From assembly GCA_007280515.1 (NCBI GenBank), contig QYPL01000018.1, positions 40,385 through 104,384 on the forward strand: a stretch of DNA of 64,000 bases, in the 5' to 3' direction. This stretch comes from Sediminibacterium sp. Its GTDB lineage: Bacteria; Bacteroidota; Bacteroidia; Chitinophagales; Chitinophagaceae. Positions 2,709-26,645 of this stretch are shown in pieces (the stretch's first letter is position 1; every line of letters begins with the position of its first letter). The translations under genes and the position numbers were made by a program. The notes beneath the pieces are model-generated. The model ran no database searches. It saw only the letters and a list, made by a program, of their open reading frames with translations, and was not told where the DNA came from.

Positions 2709-3845
2709 TTATTGTAAAATAGAGGCTAAGGTTTCTTGAAGGGCAGCGCCTCTTAGGTCTGTGGCTATTACCTTTCCAGTAGGATCTAATAAAACATTAA
2801 AAGGGATACCTTCTATTTGATAAGCGCTCACCACAATACTTTCCCATTTTTTGAGATCGCTAATATGTTGCCAACTTAATTTATCATCTTGAATGGCTTC
2901 TAGCCAGCTTGCTTTATCATCATCTAAAGAAACACCTAATACGGTGAAATTCTTTTTCTTATATTTTTCATAAGCCACTACAACATTGGGGTTCTCGCCT
3001 CTACAAGGGCCACACCAACTAGCCCAAAAATCAATAAGTACATATTTGCCTCTTAAACTAGTGAGTGAAATTATTTTTCCATTGGCATCAGGCAAGGCAA
3101 TTTCAGGGGCCATGCTTCCAACCGTAATAGCCGTAGTTTTTAAATTGGCTTGTACTTGTGTGCTTAATAAATTCGCAAATTGTGTAAGTGGTTCTGCTTT
3201 CAATTTTTCTGCAGCAGCCTTTGCCAAAGCCAATACCTGCGCCGATTCCATGGATCTTAGGCTAAGCCCTAGGGTATAGTAAACAAAAGCGGGGCTAGTA
3301 GAAGTACTAATAATATTTTCAACTAATTTATTAATATCGTTTATTTTACTGACGCGTTGTTTTTGTAAAAAGAAGATGATGCTATCTTTTCCATTTTGTT
3401 TTTGTAAAGCATCTAAATTATAAATGGTTGACATTAAAGAAGAATCCCTTTTGCGGTATTCTATTAAAAAATTAATTAAGGCTTGGCTGGTTGCAGAACC
3501 TTTAATGGTATAAGATTGGTAATTATTGGCATCTGCATTAATTTGAATATTCTCTTTATCATTAATAAATAGTATTTCCATTTCCTTTTCAGTCGCAATA
3601 CGATAAATGCCTTCTTGTTTTGCAATAAATTGAAATGAATATTTGCCTTCTTCATTTAAAGTAATAGAATCCATGGTAATAATAGGTAGTCCACCATAGG
3701 GTACTTCTTGCAATAATAATTTTTCTTTAGCAGCATGCTGTATAGTACCTGAGATAGTATAATTTTTTTCACCTGAACTGTTTTTACAGCCTGTGAAAAT
3801 GATCATCATTAAAGTTACAGCAGCTAATAGGTTTTTAATATTCAT
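2709..3845 (-). CDS. TlpA-like thioredoxin-fold lipoprotein with N-terminal DUF4369
   Basis: Lipobox IFTGC; DUF4369-like ISGTIQHAAKEKLLL; WASWCGPC thioredoxin active site. Confidence 0.9.
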   Translation of the reverse strand: MNIKNLLAAVTLMMIIFTGCKNSSGEKNYTISGTIQHAAKEKLLLQEVPYGGLPIITMDSITLNEEGKYSFQFIAKQEGIYRIATEKEMEILFINDKENIQINADANNYQSYTIKGSATSQALINFLIEYRKRDSSLMSTIYNLDALQKQNGKDSIIFFLQKQRVSKINDINKLVENIISTSTSPAFVYYTLGLSLRSMESAQVLALAKAAAEKLKAEPLTQFANLLSTQVQANLKTTAITVGSMAPEIALPDANGKIISLTSLRGKYVLIDFWASWCGPCRGENPNVVVAYEKYKKKNFTVLGVSLDDDKASWLEAIQDDKLSWQHISDLKKWESIVVSAYQIEGIPFNVLLDPTGKVIATDLRGAALQETLASILQ

Positions 3846-3854
3846 AGCACGAAA

Positions 3855-5297
3855 TTAAGCCAATTTTTGTTCTAATAAACTAGCGGTCATTTTAGGGTCG
3901 GCCTTACCCTTACTTATTTTCTTCACTTCTCCTACAAACACACCTAAAAGTCCTTTTTTTCCTTTTTTATAGGCTGCCACTTTTTCGGGATGCTTGACTA
4001 AAACTTCATCAATCCATTTTTCTATATCGTCCGTAGAGCCTGTTTGTAATAAATTATTGATGGTGGCATAGGCCATAGGAGAGCCCGGACGCGCCATCAT
4101 TTCTTTTAATACCCTAGTGCTTGCCACTGAAAAACTTAATTGATTCTTTTCCACTAATTCTACCAATTCTACTAAATAGGGTATAAAGCTACTGAGTTGT
4201 TGAAAACTAAGACTGCCTTCATTGACGACAGCTCTAATGGGGCCAATCATCCAATTAGCAATGGCTTTGTAATGTTTGCATGCAGCCGCCCATTGTATAT
4301 AAAAATCGGCCTCTTCTTTATCTTCTACTAATTGATTAATAGCATAGTCCGATAAATCATATTGTATTTTCCACTGTTTTTTTAAAGTAGCAGGAAGGGT
4401 AGGTAATTTATTTTTTATAGTTTCAATAAAAGCCTCTGTTAAATGGAAGGGTGCTAAATCTGGGTCGGGAAAATACCTATAATCATTAGCATCTTCTTTG
4501 TCTCGAATAGAAAAGGTTGTATCGTTACTTGCGTCAAAACTTCTTGTTTGTTGTATAATGGCACCGCCTGTTTCAGTTATTTGAATAAGTCGTTCAATTT
4601 CAAATTCAATAGCCTTTTTAATATTACGAATAGAATTTAAATTTTTAACTTCTACTCTAGTACCTAATCTAGTGGCACCTTTTAAGCGAATAGAAATATT
4701 GGCGTCACATCTTAAACTACCTTCTTCCATATTGCCATCGCAAATTCCTATCCAACGTACAAGTTTTCTTACTTCTGTTACAAATAAAAAGGCTTCTTCT
4801 GCAGAATGTATACAAGGCTCAGTGACCATTTCAATTAAAGGGGTGCCTGCGCGGTTTAAATCGATAAGGGTATCAGTTGCAGAAAGATCATGTATGCTTT
4901 TACCAGCATCTTCTTCTAAATGAATTCTATTGAGTTGTACTATTTTTTCTGCATCAGGTAATTGGATGGCAATGCTACCGCCCAGGCAAATAGGAGTGGT
5001 ATGTTGTGATACTTGATAACCTTTAGGTAAATCGGGGTAGAAATAATTTTTGCGTGCAAAATAATTATCCTGGGCAATCTTGGATCCGCAGATCAGTCCC
5101 ATACGAATGGCATATTCAATGGCCTTGGCATTGGTCTTGGGTAAGGTGCCGGGATGCCCCATGGTGATAGGGCTTATATGGGTATTAGGCTCCGCTCCAA
5201 AGGAAGTAGCATCTCCACAAAACAATTTGCTTTTAGTTGCTAATTGTGCATGAATTTCTAAACCAATAACTGCCTCGTATTTTTGCCCCTCTATCAT
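3855..5297 (-). CDS. gatB: Aspartyl/glutamyl-tRNA(Asn/Gln) amidotransferase subunit B
   Basis: YEAVIGLEIHAQL start, DANISIR, EVKNLNS, DYRYFPDPDL motifs; full length. Confidence 0.97.
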   Translation of the reverse strand: MIEGQKYEAVIGLEIHAQLATKSKLFCGDATSFGAEPNTHISPITMGHPGTLPKTNAKAIEYAIRMGLICGSKIAQDNYFARKNYFYPDLPKGYQVSQHTTPICLGGSIAIQLPDAEKIVQLNRIHLEEDAGKSIHDLSATDTLIDLNRAGTPLIEMVTEPCIHSAEEAFLFVTEVRKLVRWIGICDGNMEEGSLRCDANISIRLKGATRLGTRVEVKNLNSIRNIKKAIEFEIERLIQITETGGAIIQQTRSFDASNDTTFSIRDKEDANDYRYFPDPDLAPFHLTEAFIETIKNKLPTLPATLKKQWKIQYDLSDYAINQLVEDKEEADFYIQWAAACKHYKAIANWMIGPIRAVVNEGSLSFQQLSSFIPYLVELVELVEKNQLSFSVASTRVLKEMMARPGSPMAYATINNLLQTGSTDDIEKWIDEVLVKHPEKVAAYKKGKKGLLGVFVGEVKKISKGKADPKMTASLLEQKLA

Positions 5298-5322: not shown

Positions 5323-6702
5323 CTATAAATCGGCTGTTTTTAGTTTTTTAGGCAGCTTTACCACAATGGTTTTAAGCTCTTTATTTCTTTTTACTTGAAA
5401 AGTAAAACTAGTCCCTTCTTTCGCTTCTTTAATGAGAGGCTTTAAGGCGTCTACTTCTTTAATCTTTTGATCATTCACTTGCACTATAATATCATTTTCT
5501 AATAATCCACTTTTAGCAGCGGGTGAATTTTCAGCTACGTTGGTAATTTTAACGCCATCAGCTGTTTCAGTGTCTTCAATACTAATACCCAACTTTGGTT
5601 TATTCTCAAAGCCAGGTATGGTCATACCTTCCATGCCTGGAAAATTAGGTATAGCAAAGCTAAAACCTCTTGGACTTGGTTGATATTTTCTTGTATTAGG
5701 ATCAAGATATAGTTTTGGATAGGCATCAAAACTAGGTCCACCTTTTTCATTGGGATTGCTAAAATTATAATACTGCATGGTGTTTTTATTCTTCGCTAAA
5801 CTTACCAATTGGGTACTTGTTTTTCCGTTTCTGATATAACTAATAGTTACTTTATCTTCTGGTTTAGATTTTCCAATGGCATCGTATAATGAAGCGGGGC
5901 CATCAATTTTGATATCATTTACCTTGGTGATAATATCTCCTTGTTTCAAGCCTGCTATAGCTGCTGGACTTTCATCACTTACTTGATTCACTTTAGCACC
6001 TTGTTCTGTTTCTTCGGTAACAACCCCTAAAAAAGCTTCATTTGTTTTTGCTTGATTAGGAACCACCCTATCAAAATTATCTTCTCCATCTTCATTAATT
6101 ATTATATCATCGCTTAATTCAAGACCCTTACTTAAGTCTTGACCGCCAAGGGGTTTGCCATCTACTAATATTCTAGGCTTCTTCGTTTCTAAATTTCCAA
6201 GACCATTTAAGTTCTTATCTAATTTTTTTAAAATAATTCGATTATTACCTTTTCCTTCCATACTTAAGCGAGGATCATTCTCGTCCACTTCTTTTCCGTT
6301 AATAGTTACTTTATTACCATCTACTATCACCGTCATATTTACATCCACCTCTTTTTTTAATTTAGTGGAATCTTTAGATGAATCTTTTGTCCCCTCTTTT
6401 TTTGCATTCTTTTTACTGATTATCTCTATCACACCATTAGCTGCCTTCTCACCATATTTTTTTGTAGCCATGGCGCCTTTTAATACACTTACGCTTTCTA
6501 TATCAGAAGGTGCGATGTCACTAATGCTTGTTACCATTTTTCCATCTAGTATGTATAAAGGAGTTTTACCCTCTTTGCCAATGACTAGTGCAGGCGCATT
6601 GTTTTTTGGATTTTTTTTCGTGATGATGACTTCACTTGTTTGTGCCCATGCAAAATGAAATGTAAAGCTTACTAATAATAAAGAGACTAGAATTTTTTTC
6701 AT
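5323..6702 (-). CDS. Secreted protein with TonB-receptor-plug-like segment and two PDZ domains
   Basis: Signal peptide; IESVSVLKGAMATKKYGEKAANGVIEIISKK plug-like motif; two PDZ segments (AFLGVVTEE...GLKQGDIITKVND and LGISIEDTE...GLLENDIIVQVND). Confidence 0.8.
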   Translation of the reverse strand: MKKILVSLLLVSFTFHFAWAQTSEVIITKKNPKNNAPALVIGKEGKTPLYILDGKMVTSISDIAPSDIESVSVLKGAMATKKYGEKAANGVIEIISKKNAKKEGTKDSSKDSTKLKKEVDVNMTVIVDGNKVTINGKEVDENDPRLSMEGKGNNRIILKKLDKNLNGLGNLETKKPRILVDGKPLGGQDLSKGLELSDDIIINEDGEDNFDRVVPNQAKTNEAFLGVVTEETEQGAKVNQVSDESPAAIAGLKQGDIITKVNDIKIDGPASLYDAIGKSKPEDKVTISYIRNGKTSTQLVSLAKNKNTMQYYNFSNPNEKGGPSFDAYPKLYLDPNTRKYQPSPRGFSFAIPNFPGMEGMTIPGFENKPKLGISIEDTETADGVKITNVAENSPAAKSGLLENDIIVQVNDQKIKEVDALKPLIKEAKEGTSFTFQVKRNKELKTIVVKLPKKLKTADL

Positions 6703-6874: not shown

Positions 6875-9562
6875 CTAACCTAGAGATGTTTTCACTACCT
6901 CAATTACTTTATTAAGTTGACTAGCATCTTGACCACCTGCAGTAGCCAACGTTTTTTGGCCACCACCACCACCTTTAATAAGGGGAGCAATTTTTTCTTT
7001 AATAATTTGAGTGGCAGGCATAGTAGCGCTTAATGATTCACTAATAGAAACTGCAACAGCTGCTTTGCCATCGATGGCGGCTACTAGTATAATACAATGA
7101 TTATTTTGAGTAAGTCCCAAGGCTACTGCTAATTTTTTTAAATTATCGGTGCTTGATAATACTATTTGCTTACCTAAAAATGCAGTTCCATTAATGGTTT
7201 CAAATTGGCTAGCATATTGAGTGGTTAATTCATTGACAAGTAATGCTTCCTGACTTTCTAATTTTTTAGAGAGTTCTTTTTGAATTGATTGCAAAGAAGC
7301 AATCGTATCATTTAAAATAGATACTGATGAATTTTCATTCCACTCAGGTGCTTTAAATGGAGCAGTTATTTTTACCGCAAGTAATGCACAAGCCTCAGTT
7401 AGTTGTACTATTTGTTTATGCAATTTTTCATTTACTTCTGTAATATGTTTTGCAGCTGCATCTCCAACCACTGCCTCAATTCTTCTTACACCAGCAGCAA
7501 CAGAGGCTTCGGCTTTTAAGATAAAATGTCCTATTTCTCCTGTATGTCCCACATGGGTACCACCACATAATTCAATAGAATAAGCAGGGTCCATTATAAC
7601 CACGCGTACTTTGTCTCCATATTTTTCTCCAAACAAAGCCATCGCACCCAATCCAATGGCCTCTTGTTTATTCATCTCTTTTATAACTACCGGAATATTT
7701 TCTTTGATTTTAGCATTCACCATTGCTTCTACTTGGTTCATTTCTTCTGCAGTCATTTTAGCGAAATGAGAAAAGTCAAATCTTAGTTGTTCGGTATTAA
7801 CTAAACTTCCTTTCTGTGCCACATGCTTGCCTAGTATATTTCTTAAAGCAGCATGAAGTAAGTGTGTTGCAGAATGGTGTAATGTAGTTGCTTTTCTGGC
7901 CGGTGCATTAACAGTTGCTTTTACAGTATTAGAAATTACTGGTGGCAAGCTATCTGTGAAATGTATAAATAAATTATTTTCTTTTTTAGTATCTGTTACT
8001 TCAATAATAGTACCATCTTCAAATTGGAAGTTACCTATATCACCTATTTGTCCGCCACTTTCTGCATAAAAAGGCGTTTCAGCTAAAACCCATTGATAGG
8101 CTTCTTTTCCTTTGGCTTTTACATTTCTATATTTTATAATAGTAGCAGTAGTTTCTCTTTGTGTATAACCCACAAAATTAGTTTCCTTGTCAGGGTTTAC
8201 TTGTATCCAATCTCCTGTATCAATCGCAGTAGCCGCACGGCTTCTGTTTTTTTGTTGCTGCATTTCTTTTTCAAATCCAGGCTCATCTACTTGTAAATCA
8301 TTTTCTGATGCAATTAACCTAGTTAAATCAACAGGAAAACCGAAAGTGTCAAATAATTCAAAAACTAATTTTCCTTCAATGGTTGAATTTTTCGGATGCG
8401 TACTAATAATATCATCTATACGCTTTAATCCCTTTTCTAAAGTGCGTAAGAAACCTTCCTCTTCTTCTTTCACTACCTTAGTTACAAATTCAAGTTGTCC
8501 TGTTAATTCAGGAAATACATTTTCAAATTGTTTTGCCAAATGAGGCATTAACTGATGTAGTAAGGGATGCTTATAATCTAAATATGAATAATAATACCTT
8601 ACCGCTCTTCTTAAAATACGACGAATTACATAACCAGCACCAGTGTTGGCGGGTAGTTGACCATCGGCAATAGTGAAGGCAATGGCGCGAATATGATCTG
8701 CAATAACTCTAAAGGCAACGGCTTCTTTGGTATCGCTATAATCGTATTTTTTATGGGTGATTTTTTCAACTACTTCAATGGTGCCTGTGAATACATCTGT
8801 ATCGTAGTTACTTTTTTTATTTTGAATCACACGCACTAGTCTTTCAAAACCCATGCCGGTATCGACATGTTTATTAGGAAGCGGTTCTAAACTGCCATCT
8901 TTTTTTCTATTATATTGTATAAATACATTGTTCCAAATTTCAATGACTTGAGGATGGTCTTTATTAACTAAATCACGGCCTGGTATTTTAGCAATCTCTT
9001 CTTCTGATCGCATGTCTACATGTATTTCACTACATGGGCCACAAGGCCCAGTATCTCCCATCTCCCAGAAATTATCTTTTTTATTACCGTATATAATTTT
9101 ATCTTCTGCGACCCATTTTTTCCAATGCATTAATGCTACACTAGAAGGGGGTAAGTTTTCAGAGGCATCTCCTTCAAAAACACTCACATATAATTTAGCA
9201 GGATCAATCCCATATACCTTTGTTAATAATTCCCAACTCCATTCAATAGCTTCTCCTTTAAAATAATCGCCAAAGCTCCAGTTGCCCAACATTTCAAACA
9301 TAGTATGGTGATAGGTGTCAACACCCACTTCTTCTAAGTCGTTATGCTTACCACTTACGCGTAAACATTTTTGTGTATCGGCAATTCTTTTATGGCTAGG
9401 TACTTGGTTGCCTAAAAAAAAGTCTTTGAACTGGTTCATTCCTGCATTGGTGAAAAGTAAGCTAGGGTCGTTCTTTACGACAATAGGTGCGGATGGAACG
9501 ATGGCATGCCCTTTAGATGCGAAAAAATCTAAAAATTGTTGTCTTATTTCAGGGCTGGTCAT
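6875..9562 (-). CDS. alaS: Alanyl-tRNA synthetase
   Basis: 895 aa; RQQFLDFFASKGH start, HHTMFEMLGNWSFGDYFK, HSATHLLHAALR, CGGTHVGHTGEIG. Confidence 0.98.
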   Translation of the reverse strand: MTSPEIRQQFLDFFASKGHAIVPSAPIVVKNDPSLLFTNAGMNQFKDFFLGNQVPSHKRIADTQKCLRVSGKHNDLEEVGVDTYHHTMFEMLGNWSFGDYFKGEAIEWSWELLTKVYGIDPAKLYVSVFEGDASENLPPSSVALMHWKKWVAEDKIIYGNKKDNFWEMGDTGPCGPCSEIHVDMRSEEEIAKIPGRDLVNKDHPQVIEIWNNVFIQYNRKKDGSLEPLPNKHVDTGMGFERLVRVIQNKKSNYDTDVFTGTIEVVEKITHKKYDYSDTKEAVAFRVIADHIRAIAFTIADGQLPANTGAGYVIRRILRRAVRYYYSYLDYKHPLLHQLMPHLAKQFENVFPELTGQLEFVTKVVKEEEEGFLRTLEKGLKRIDDIISTHPKNSTIEGKLVFELFDTFGFPVDLTRLIASENDLQVDEPGFEKEMQQQKNRSRAATAIDTGDWIQVNPDKETNFVGYTQRETTATIIKYRNVKAKGKEAYQWVLAETPFYAESGGQIGDIGNFQFEDGTIIEVTDTKKENNLFIHFTDSLPPVISNTVKATVNAPARKATTLHHSATHLLHAALRNILGKHVAQKGSLVNTEQLRFDFSHFAKMTAEEMNQVEAMVNAKIKENIPVVIKEMNKQEAIGLGAMALFGEKYGDKVRVVIMDPAYSIELCGGTHVGHTGEIGHFILKAEASVAAGVRRIEAVVGDAAAKHITEVNEKLHKQIVQLTEACALLAVKITAPFKAPEWNENSSVSILNDTIASLQSIQKELSKKLESQEALLVNELTTQYASQFETINGTAFLGKQIVLSSTDNLKKLAVALGLTQNNHCIILVAAIDGKAAVAVSISESLSATMPATQIIKEKIAPLIKGGGGGQKTLATAGGQDASQLNKVIEVVKTSLG

Positions 9563-22798: not shown

Positions 22799-24301
22799 AT
22801 GACCTCTACCACTCAGAAACACCCCAAGGGATTATATGTTTTATTTGCAACAGAAATGTGGGAGCGTTTTAACTACTATGGTATGCGCGCTATCTTGGTT
22901 TTATTTTTAACCAAGGCCTTATTATTTGACAAAGTTTTCGCCTCCCAAGTATATGGTAGTTATACGGGCTTGGTTTATTTAACACCCCTTTTAGGAGGCT
23001 ATATAGCCGATAGGTATTGGGGTAATAACCGCTCCATCATTGCAGGAGGTCTAGTCATGGCCATTGGTGAATTTGTACTATTTTTTTGTGGGCATTTCTA
23101 TGAAAATGCTGCCTTAGCCATGCCTTTATTTTATATTGGTCTGGGATGTATGATTGCAGGTAATGGTTTTTTCAAGCCTAATATTTCAAGTATGGTAGGG
23201 CAGCTCTATGCCAAGGGCGATTCTAGAATTGACGCTTCTTACACTATTTTTTATATGGGTATTAATACAGGCGGAGCCATTGGCCCCTTCGTCTGTGGTT
23301 TTTTTGGAGACACGGGTAAGTCGGGCGATTTTAAATGGGCTTTTTTCGCAGGCGGCGTTGCTATGTTATTAAGTGTCATTACACAAATAGTTTTTCAGAA
23401 AAAATATTTAGTGAATGCAGATGGGCAGTCCATTGGAGAGGCCCCTAAAGACGCACCGGCTTGGTTTCAAAAAATTCCAGTGATGGTGGGCTTTTTATTT
23501 TTAATTTCTTTAGTCACCATTGCATTAGTATACATTGATATTAAAGTAGTGAGTTATTTATTTTGGTTGTTACTAGCTTGTATTATTTTGATTGCTGTCA
23601 TTATTTTTTCAGATAAATCATTGGATATTATTCAGAAGAAAAAAGTAGCCGTATTATTTACGGTATCTTTCTTTGTTATATTTTTTTGGAGTGCCTTTGA
23701 ACAAGCAGGTGCCTCACTCACTTATTTCGCTTCAGAGAATACACAAAGAGACCTTGGTTTTTTTGTAGTGCCTGCAAGTTTTTTTCAATCGCTGAATTCT
23801 TTATTTGTTGTAACACTTGCTCCCTTAGTGGCATGGGTATGGATTAAACTTGGGAAAGCAAAAAGAGAACCCTCTTCTCCCTTTAAAATGGCCATGGGTT
23901 TAATGCTATTAGCCCTTGGTTATTTATGGATAGCTACTGGAGTGAACGGAGTGGGAACGGGTGTTAAAGTAAGTATGATTTGGTTAATAGGAATGTACAT
24001 GATGCATACATTTGGTGAACTTTGTTTATCACCCATTGGTCTTGCTATATTCAATAAATTAGCACCTATTAAATTTGCTTCATTATTAATGGCAGTATGG
24101 TTTACAGCGAATGCCTTTGCGAATAAATTAGCAGGTGTATTTAGTGCGCTGTATCCAGAAAATGGTAAGGTTACTTCTTTTGCGGGCTATCAAATTAGCA
24201 ATTTGCATGAGTTTTTTATGTTCTTCGTATTCATGGCTGGAATTGCTTCTATTATTTTGTTTTTGATTTCGAATAAATTGAAAAACTTAATGACCCATTA
24301 G
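22799..24301 (+). CDS. POT family proton-dependent peptide MFS transporter
   Basis: GLYVLFATEMWERFNYYGMRAILVLFL, FKPNISSMVGQLY, FYMGINTGGAIGPFVCG typical of PTR2/POT. Confidence 0.95.
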   Translation: MTSTTQKHPKGLYVLFATEMWERFNYYGMRAILVLFLTKALLFDKVFASQVYGSYTGLVYLTPLLGGYIADRYWGNNRSIIAGGLVMAIGEFVLFFCGHFYENAALAMPLFYIGLGCMIAGNGFFKPNISSMVGQLYAKGDSRIDASYTIFYMGINTGGAIGPFVCGFFGDTGKSGDFKWAFFAGGVAMLLSVITQIVFQKKYLVNADGQSIGEAPKDAPAWFQKIPVMVGFLFLISLVTIALVYIDIKVVSYLFWLLLACIILIAVIIFSDKSLDIIQKKKVAVLFTVSFFVIFFWSAFEQAGASLTYFASENTQRDLGFFVVPASFFQSLNSLFVVTLAPLVAWVWIKLGKAKREPSSPFKMAMGLMLLALGYLWIATGVNGVGTGVKVSMIWLIGMYMMHTFGELCLSPIGLAIFNKLAPIKFASLLMAVWFTANAFANKLAGVFSALYPENGKVTSFAGYQISNLHEFFMFFVFMAGIASIILFLISNKLKNLMTH

Positions 24302-24327
24302 AAGTTTATAAAGCAATAAAAAAATAC

Positions 24328-24482
24328 CAATCCTTCGCTCCCTCTCGCTCTGCTCAAAAGTGCGCTTAGGATTATATTTTATTTATTTACTTTATAAATA
24401 GAGTATTAATCCATAGCCCCTCATTCAACAGACGCTCGCTCGCGTCTTCTTGCTCAGGATTGTATTTATATATTTTACTTTA
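24328..24482. repeat. Two degenerate direct-repeat units in the intergenic region
   Basis: Unit 1 ends TGCTCAaaagtgcgctTAGGATTaTATTTtATTTATTTACTTTAT and unit 2 ends TGCTCAGGATTgTATTTATATATTTTACTTTAT; unit 2 contains the perfect hairpin AGACGC-TCGCTC-GCGTCT (24430-24447). Confidence 0.6.
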
Positions 24483-24496
24483 TTTCTTTGACCCAC

Positions 24497-24693
24497 TGCT
24501 AATTTAAAGCGTTTGAAAAACAATCTACTTGCGAATTTATGTGAATAGCGTTAAGAAAATATTTCTATACATTGTAAAAAATTGTGTGTTTGAGCGAACC
24601 GAGTTCGCAATTTTTAGATGAATAAAAATGTTTTTAGCGTCATTCACATCGAAGAGCAATAGATTTTTTCAAACGCATTCAATAGCATTAGCA
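24497..24693. repeat. Long imperfect palindrome, possible structured RNA or palindromic repeat element
   Basis: Left arm TGCTAAT..GCGTTTGAAAAA(c)AATCTA..ATGTGAAT..AGCGTT..TAAAAAATTG is complementary in order to right arm CAATTTTTA..AGCGTC..ATTCACAT..TAGATTTTTTCAAACGC..ATTAGCA; apex GCGAAC-CGA-GTTCGC at 24594-24608. Confidence 0.75.
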
Positions 24694-24701
24694 ATAAAAT
24701 G

Positions 24702-26645
24702 TTAAAGCACTCCTTTAACAATCTCCTCCACCACTGCAGGATCAAGAAGTGTTGAAGTGTCTCCTAAACTTTTCAATTCACCCTCGGCTACTTTGCGAAG
24801 TATACGACGCATAATTTTACCAGAACGTGTTTTAGGAAGCCCCGATACAAATTGTATTTTATCTGGTTTGGCAATAGGGCCAATGATTCTAGTAACTGTT
24901 TGTAAGATATCTTTTCTAATCATATCGGCACTGCCATGGGTGTCTTGACTATGTGATCCTGTATAAATTACATAAGCATAAATGCCTTGTCCTTTCAGAT
25001 CATGCGGATAACCTACTACTGCACTTTCTACCACACCCGCATGCATGTTAATCGCGTTTTCTACTTCAGCGGTACCAATTCTATGGCCACTTACATTTAA
25101 GACATCATCCACGCGGCCCGTAATTCTAATTTGGCCCAATTCATTTTTTAAAGCACCATCTCCTGTAAAATATAAATTAGGATAAGTGGCGAAATAATTG
25201 GTTCTGCATCTTTCATGGTCGCCATAAGTAGTTCTTATGGTGGCAGGCCAAGGTTGAGTGATACATAAATTTCCTCTGTATAAATTATCTTCCCCAGTAG
25301 TGACTTCTTCTCCTTTATCATCTACTAAAATAGTTTTCACACCAGGCATCGGATAAGTGGCCCAACCTGGTTTGCTCGGCGTAATACCCGCCATATTAGA
25401 AATCATAATGCCTCCTGTTTCTGTTTGCCACCAAGTATCTACAATGGGACATTTTTTCTTACCAATATTTTCATCGTACCAATGCCATGCTTCTTCATTA
25501 ATGGGTTCTCCTACGGTGCCTAATACTTTTAAACTACTTAAATCATGCCCATTCACTGGGCCTAATCCATAACTCATTAAAGACCTAATGGCTGTGGGTG
25601 CCGTATATAAAATATTGACTTTGAATTTATCAATGATATCCCAAAACCTTCCTGCATCGGGGAAAGTAGGAATGCCTTCAAACATTAAGGAAGTACCGCC
25701 TGCACTTAAAGGCGCATACACGACATAACTATGTCCTGTAATCCAACCAATATCTGCGGTGCAAAAAAATAAATCATTGGGTTGATATTGAAAAACATTC
25801 ACAAAAGTATAATTGGTATACACCATATAACCTGCGGTGCTATGCACTACACCCTTGGGTTTACCTGTAGAGCCTGAAGTATATAAAATAAATAAAGGAT
25901 CTTCTGCATCCATCTCTACTGCCTCTATTGAACTGATGCCTTGCGCTTCTACTTTTTTAATTTCATCTTCCCACCAAAGGTCACGGCCTTTTAACATGGA
26001 AACAGCGGTGCTAGTTCTTGTACAAACAATCACATTTTTAATAGTGGTAATACCCACTAGTGCATCATCAATAATAGATTTCAGTGGGATGTCTTTGGCG
26101 CCTCTGTAGGCTCCATCGCAGGTAATAATATAACTGGCTTTCAAATCGTTTAATCTATCTGCTATACTTTGCGCAGAAAAGCCACCAAAAATTACACTAT
26201 GAATAGCGCCAATTCTTGCGCAAGCTAATACAGCAATGGCAAGCTCTGGAATCATGCCCATATAAATACATACTCGATCTCCTTTTTGCACGCCATTATT
26301 AATAAGTACTTGTGCGAATTGACAAACATGCAAATGCAATTGTTTGTAGGTGATAATTCGGTGATTTTCTTTAGCATCATTAGGCTCCCAAATAATGGCA
26401 GGCTTGTCGCCATTATTTGCTAAATGTCTATCGATACAATTTTCAGTAATATTTAATCTACCTCCCTTAAACCATTCTACTTTAGGTTCTGTAAAATTCC
26501 ATTCTAATACCTTATCCCATTTTTTACGCCAAGTAAAATTTTCAGCAATTTTCCCCCAAAATTTTTCTGGATGGTCAATGCTATTTTTATAAGCTTCGTG
26601 GTAAGCTTCTAAGGTTTTAATTTGATAGGGGTAACTCATATGCAC
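24702..26645 (-). CDS. acs: Acetyl-CoA synthetase (acetate--CoA ligase)
   Basis: LYTSGSTGKPKGVVHSTAGYMVYT, VDTWWQTETGGIM, GRVDDVLNVSGHRIGTAEVE, PKTRSGKIMRRILRK. Confidence 0.97.
   Translation of the reverse strand: MHMSYPYQIKTLEAYHEAYKNSIDHPEKFWGKIAENFTWRKKWDKVLEWNFTEPKVEWFKGGRLNITENCIDRHLANNGDKPAIIWEPNDAKENHRIITYKQLHLHVCQFAQVLINNGVQKGDRVCIYMGMIPELAIAVLACARIGAIHSVIFGGFSAQSIADRLNDLKASYIITCDGAYRGAKDIPLKSIIDDALVGITTIKNVIVCTRTSTAVSMLKGRDLWWEDEIKKVEAQGISSIEAVEMDAEDPLFILYTSGSTGKPKGVVHSTAGYMVYTNYTFVNVFQYQPNDLFFCTADIGWITGHSYVVYAPLSAGGTSLMFEGIPTFPDAGRFWDIIDKFKVNILYTAPTAIRSLMSYGLGPVNGHDLSSLKVLGTVGEPINEEAWHWYDENIGKKKCPIVDTWWQTETGGIMISNMAGITPSKPGWATYPMPGVKTILVDDKGEEVTTGEDNLYRGNLCITQPWPATIRTTYGDHERCRTNYFATYPNLYFTGDGALKNELGQIRITGRVDDVLNVSGHRIGTAEVENAINMHAGVVESAVVGYPHDLKGQGIYAYVIYTGSHSQDTHGSADMIRKDILQTVTRIIGPIAKPDKIQFVSGLPKTRSGKIMRRILRKVAEGELKSLGDTSTLLDPAVVEEIVKGVL

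Follow-up and report, generated by a model that had tools for sequence, protein, structure and literature searches.

The 64,000-nucleotide stretch of Sediminibacterium sp. DNA that we analysed (hereafter, the window) holds, between a POT transporter gene and acs, a gap of 400 bases (24301 to 24702) in which, as originally predicted, lies an imperfect palindrome of ~197 bases (Table 1). The transporter gene is on the plus strand and acs on the minus strand, so that the pair is convergent. A 231-nt stretch around the palindrome folds on the plus strand with -64.8 kcal/mol vs -38.9 ± 3.9 for 200 dinucleotide shuffles, none of which equals it (z -6.7), and the minus strand also folds better than its shuffles (z -5.8). 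Against R2, our covariance model for the phylum, the window copy scores 110 bits on the plus strand (E 4e-27) and 28 bits on the minus strand. The perfect GCGAAC-CGA-GTTCGC tip (24594-24608) reported earlier is present but not typical of the family, since it depends on a base that is unique to the window copy; in the closest relatives, this place reads GAGCGAAGCGAG, and the conserved family tip stem is AAAAATTGTG/CGCAATTTTT, enclosing a TGAGC..GCGAG loop. The window tip is also listed as terminator-like, such listings being no more frequent than in shuffles. The second repeat of the gap, with AGGATT units, gives a weak minus-strand match to R2 (24290-24416, 25 bits), has a further copy in the same genome (G000:C14:48089-48149) and adjoins acs in the relatives G030, G056 and G012 as well. 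It is possibly a diverged relative of the palindrome, located where other species hold a partner element.

Table 1. Coordinates of the element, its modules and its neighbours in the window, and of repeat-derived reading frames at another locus (L342, own numbering)
Feature	Position	Strand	Basis or remark
POT transporter gene	22799..24301	+	Convergent neighbour; the element would be in sense orientation in its transcript
Second palindromic repeat, AGGATT units/ends, GAGCAGAGCGAG motif	24300..24490		Fills the remainder of the POT/acs gap
Whole imperfect palindrome (core and outer arms)	24497..24693	+	Folding; G030 and G056 copies 94% identical over nearly the whole length
Family core	24521..24664	+ (structured strand)	Covariance-model match, R2
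Module 1, 5' side, AGCGTTAAGAAAA	24547..24559	+	Near-invariant alignment columns
Module 2, 5' side, CATTGTAAAAAA; family form CATCGTTAAAAAA	24570..24581	+	Alignment columns, module spacing
Apical motif TGTTTGAGCGAACCGAGTTC; family form TGTYTGAGCGAAGCGAGTTC	24587..24606	+	Alignment, pattern scan
Module 2, 3' side, TTTTTAGATG	24611..24620	+	Alignment columns
Module 1, 3' side, TTTTTAGCGTCAT	24631..24643	+	Near-invariant alignment columns
acs gene	24702..26645	-	Convergent neighbour
L342 repeat-derived ORFs	around 4713-4898, 6428-6637, 7416-7757		Translated repeat

The palindrome has relatives. BLAST found two more intergenic copies in the same genome, in which a covariance model derived from the genus copies (R1) detected five copies and one weak match; among 101 genomes (own and relatives), every genome with a BLAST match belonged to one genus. 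The view of a genus-restricted family, which an initial BLAST scan with matches in 1 of 33 genera had suggested, was overturned by the structure models and a sequence-pattern scan. R1 matches occur in 63 of 147 Sediminibacterium genomes, with 1-11 per genome, and weaker ones in 24 of the 104 genera sampled from the family. R2 detected the element in 41 of 398 genomes of the phylum (24 of 172 genera), a survey in which at most seven candidates were scored per genome and copy counts are thus lower bounds; carriers searched with more candidates contain 2-39 copies each. Most of the matches listed in the pattern scan of the species collection fall in Bacteroidota (Chryseobacterium, Kaistella, Capnocytophaga, Massilibacteroides, Bacteroidaceae, Saprospiraceae, metagenome-assembled Marinilabiliaceae and Microscilla). 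R2 found nothing in pattern matches titled Saccharibacteria, Ignavibacteriales, Selenomonadales, Rhodoferax, Bathyarchaeota, Psittacicella, Bacillota or Clostridia, which are therefore chance matches. Two metagenome-assembled contigs, titled Lachnospiraceae (L190, JAFTVQ010000140.1) and Comamonas (L220, CALPWK020000004.1), carry Bacteroidota-type copies and are probably mis-binned or mis-titled. Within Sediminibacterium, strong matches are nearly confined to species with small assemblies (~1.2-2.5 Mb), matches being absent or weak in species of 3-4.5 Mb. Searches of plasmid and phage collections found nothing useful. These figures come with rough model E-values and many metagenome-assembled genomes, and the counts are not independent because the copies are related.

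The window palindrome is almost certainly one member of a family of hairpin repeats, with a common structure, distributed across the Bacteroidota, in line with the earlier suggestion of a palindromic repeat family. Each copy, about 145-220 bp long, forms one long rod-like hairpin with the conserved modules AGCGTTAAGAAA/TTTTTAGCG and CGTTAAAAA/TTTTAG and the apical loop; between the modules, the helices vary in sequence and retain their pairing. The spacing of the two CGTTAA modules is 26-27 nt in 156 of the 160 copies measured. On a first alignment of 32 copies, made with MAFFT and without structure information, a 42-pair rod pairs in 88% of the cells and shows both-side changes in 224 cells vs 82 in shuffles, with a covariation of 0.421 against 0.143 ± 0.011 when shuffled and at most 0.113 when slid. 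The R2 alignment (110 matches, 102 of them distinct) reaches 0.597 vs 0.149 in its control, and the model built from these sequences recovers the family across the phylum. Template-switch correction of the arms was judged, by argument, an unlikely cause of this covariation: the unequal internal loops, which are conserved, would be lost in the process as well.

The covariation has a polarity. G-U far exceeds A-C among the variable pairs of the genus alignment (165:31) and, since the genus alignment had been produced by fitting to the model, the count was redone on the unfitted MAFFT alignment, where the excess persists (53:12, p 1e-7). One strand is therefore the structured strand; the plus strand folds better than the minus strand in 111 of 112 genus copies. 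Structure is thus kept on a single strand, whether RNA or single-stranded DNA; folding of either would be expected to yield the same asymmetry. The option of a structured non-coding RNA raised in the original prediction gains support from these data to that extent.

In Sediminibacterium, a freshwater genus, the element has a very particular location. With ORFs called by a simple rule, all 102 copies lie clear of ORFs, and convergent gaps harbour 87 of 94, compared with 9 convergent pairs among the 46 neighbouring gene pairs of the window. The 113 model matches of the genus resolve into 13 syntenic loci, nearly all of housekeeping genes (named by reading their translations): acs/POT, lysC, trhO/purC, iscA-like/secDF, ligA/asd, fumC/amidohydrolase, M1 peptidase/rsmG, guaA/LexA-like, pheT/dnaB, glyS/reductase, topA/desaturase, and others. 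At most loci with enough copies, compensatory changes within the single locus exceed those in shuffles, as for acs (397 vs 77 ± 19) and fumC (250 vs 58 ± 14). In the rest of the phylum, the gap is codirectional in 64 cases, convergent in 21 and divergent in 9, the baseline share of intergenic length being ~71%, ~11% and ~17%, respectively. In the codirectional gaps, 67 copies run along the gene direction and 20 opposite to it, a bias due mainly to Chryseobacterium.

The element also has a relationship with terminators. The acs gap of several element-free species measures 46-75 bases and holds a canonical two-way terminator. No other canonical terminator was found in the 22 gaps with fewer than 90 free bases beside the element; roomier element gaps have one in 33 of 54 cases, and the element is therefore not always the needed one, element-free convergent gaps having one in 15 of 30. 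The original prediction that an adjacent T-run is lacking was only partly right, as short T-tracts (~4-6) follow the family tip stem on both strands, although that stem is weak (mean -6.9 on the plus and -5.7 on the minus strand, vs ~-11 to -13 for canonical terminators). These data fit an element able to take over the 3'-end role, without amounting to proof.

We tentatively favour, with a confidence just short of even, the reading of the element as a mobile structured repeat that in Sediminibacterium would have settled into the role of a 3'-end element for convergent genes. The family is, or was, mobile and has become established in the Sediminibacterium lineage at 13 pairs of convergent housekeeping genes; there, under this reading, it would most likely act at the RNA level. 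Transcripts running into the gap would fold the hairpin, with a T-tract after the tip stem on either strand, and the folded hairpin could stop transcription, set and protect the end of the message, or both. We infer both this function in termination or 3'-end protection and that the folded molecule is RNA, not single-stranded DNA. Covariation, strand asymmetry, convergent location clear of ORFs, compensation within loci, the compact gaps without another terminator, the canonical two-way terminators in the acs gap of element-free species and the T-tracts all argue for this reading. The weak tip stem and the terminators in roomier gaps argue against it, as do the strand preference, which would be superfluous in a symmetrical two-way terminator, and the presence outside the genus of some copies inside codirectional gene runs (e.g., argC-argD).

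The element might instead be purely selfish, a non-autonomous mobile element moving as a folded single DNA strand, its modules being recombinase or transposase contacts, its covarying helices kept for mobility and its survival in 3'-3' gaps reflecting the harm of insertions elsewhere. Massilibacteroides vaginae has 98% identical copies at unrelated sites with flanks that are not alike, and Microscilla identical copies at three loci with unlike flanks. Such copies (98-100% identical) indicate mobility and support the earlier option of a mobile-element remnant in these other lineages. The presence or absence of the element in the acs gap differs between species, and Chryseobacterium carries tandem arrays, with copies before purB or between argC and argD. 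Three copies (2360-2500, 3691-3833 and 7682-7895) lie on a contig of a viral collection (L348, IMGVR_UViG_3300033143_006082) with ORFs that, judged by eye, are terminase- and portal-like, so that phages or prophages may ferry the element between hosts. G-T wobble in single-stranded DNA would produce an equal strand asymmetry. Yet the Sediminibacterium copies stay at their 13 syntenic loci and undergo compensatory changes in place, which a dead insertion would not; no transposase is consistently associated with the element, PF01797 being missing in 9 of 15 carriers; and neither clean ends nor target duplications were found, the filled and empty acs gaps of different species being too diverged to define them. 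We consider a purely selfish nature doubtful, albeit a serious possibility.

Other observations concern the surroundings of the copies. In Massilibacteroides, the conserved block reaches ~300 bases, with REP-like repeats at its borders, and several copies of M. vaginae (L119, L134, L137, L138 and others) are flanked by other dispersed repeats, TGTCATGCTGAGCCTGTCGAAGCATCTC and CTCCACTTCGGTCGAGATGACA, in a genome that yielded no PF01797 transposase. At L003, L065, L245 and L236, the 5' arm is partly replaced by another AT-rich palindrome with the motif GCAAATCAAAGATTTGC or a hairpin of TTAAATTTAAAA type, which suggests a further small repeat inserting into the element. The arms are complementary, but no autonomous partner was found. 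An autonomous element with its gene between paired hairpins was rejected, the widest pairs (L106 and L317) holding, by eye, an ordinary enzyme-like ORF or short ORFs and no recognisable transposase.

Among neighbouring elements of opposed orientation, 27 pairs are head to head, against 2 that are tail to tail. Almost all Sediminibacterium pairs consist of one copy of a short-loop subtype and one of a long-loop subtype, and in Bacteroidales, too, several pairs combine two subtypes. This arrangement, together with the strand preference and with 5' flanks of single copies that are longer than their 3' flanks (medians 87 and 30), could be explained by a small non-coding RNA gene, often present as a divergent pair, in which the head-to-head spacer would hold outward promoters and each hairpin would be a separate stable RNA. 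However, inspection by eye of the 5' flanks and spacers revealed no conserved promoter, spacers can be as short as 22 nt and many compact gaps leave less than 40 nt upstream; we consider this explanation improbable. A REP/BIME-type repeat moved by a RAYT (Y1) transposase would also be palindromic, intergenic and found in inverted pairs, but PF01797 was not detected in the genome of the window (G000), nor in carriers with 20, 34 and 27 copies. Its absence from G000 and 8 others of 15 carriers means that RAYT is not the general mover, and the element far exceeds the 20-40 bp of a REP palindromic unit (PMC3733652). We thus reject a RAYT-driven REP as highly unlikely, and the BIME/MITE-like label of the original prediction, understood as membership, is not supported for an element several times the length of a REP, whose carriers often lack the transposase and for which no terminal inverted repeat with a target-site duplication was established. 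A chance palindrome or decayed, functionless DNA, for which AT-rich intergenic sequence and some truncated copies (L045, L063 and L284) could be invoked, has a negligible probability given the fold z of -6.7 and the comparison with shuffles, the phylum-wide homologues and the covariation.

Integron attC sites conserve structure above sequence, with two spaced boxes, asymmetric loops and one folded strand. The element resembles them only in how they work (conserved structure, spaced modules, one folded strand); by contrast, no cassette arrays were seen, the tandem copies of Chryseobacterium being devoid of cassette-like genes, and copies occur between chromosomal housekeeping genes. The palindromic, intergenic and interspersed ERIC repeats, for which we know of no settled mechanism of movement, are similar in these three respects; the Bacteroidota element differs in its modules set between covarying helices, its two subtypes and its head-to-head pairing. 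A blastn search of the window copy against 5,426 Escherichia coli genomes, standing in for the ERIC consensus (~127 bp; PMC3049150), gave no match. REP/BIME and REPIN sequences are palindromic and extragenic and form inverted doublets (PMC3116915), as found here, but each of our elements is by itself a ~150-nt rod, many carriers lack RAYT and the partners are two different subtypes. Pneumococcal BOX, RUP and SPRITE are also structured interspersed repeats, in another phylum and with another anatomy; SPRITE, which resembles a Rho-independent terminator (PMC3049150), has a long T-tract, in contrast to the short T-tracts, at more than one level, of the Bacteroidota element. Rfam 15 has no match in the window (none in the gap at E up to 1), nor at the element in 10 other loci, so that no known Rfam family matches it. 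The descriptions of HMP2_4078, HMP2_4205, HMP2_1065 and HMP2_1032 available to us present palindromic Bacteroidetes candidate RNAs of 80-132 bp, some HMP2 palindromic candidates being predicted terminators (PMC8040213); at the level of these descriptions, they may represent a prior detection of relatives of the element. Searches of the open literature, including with sequence strings, found no description of the element, which is apparently uncatalogued, the HMP2 candidates being compared by description only. We conclude that it represents a new family of structured interspersed repeats, spread across the phylum and working in the manner of ERIC, BOX or SPRITE. Its unusual traits are the covariation, the strand preference, the paired subtypes and the near-exclusive occurrence in convergent housekeeping gaps in Sediminibacterium.

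A more ambitious picture would be that of phylum-wide, still mobile paired hairpins, read by their one-strand structure, spread by an enzyme yet to be identified and repeatedly fixed in one lineage, where they would be the standard 3'-end device of convergent housekeeping gene pairs; taken as a whole, it seems to us rather unlikely. Bacterial interspersed repeats are usually defined by their sequence; here, a hairpin and its internal modules outlast sequence across a phylum. With one genus in which the element is nearly confined to convergent gaps, the old question of whether such repeats are parasites or working 3'-end signals becomes testable. At L342, ORFs that end in ..ILFERSEFNRL or start with LNSLRSNRIACLTLRAL.. 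are the repeat read as protein, and some short hypothetical Bacteroidota proteins are therefore probably annotation artefacts. The element would thus account for one kind of spurious small protein annotated in Bacteroidota, and its systematic annotation would become possible with a covariance model.
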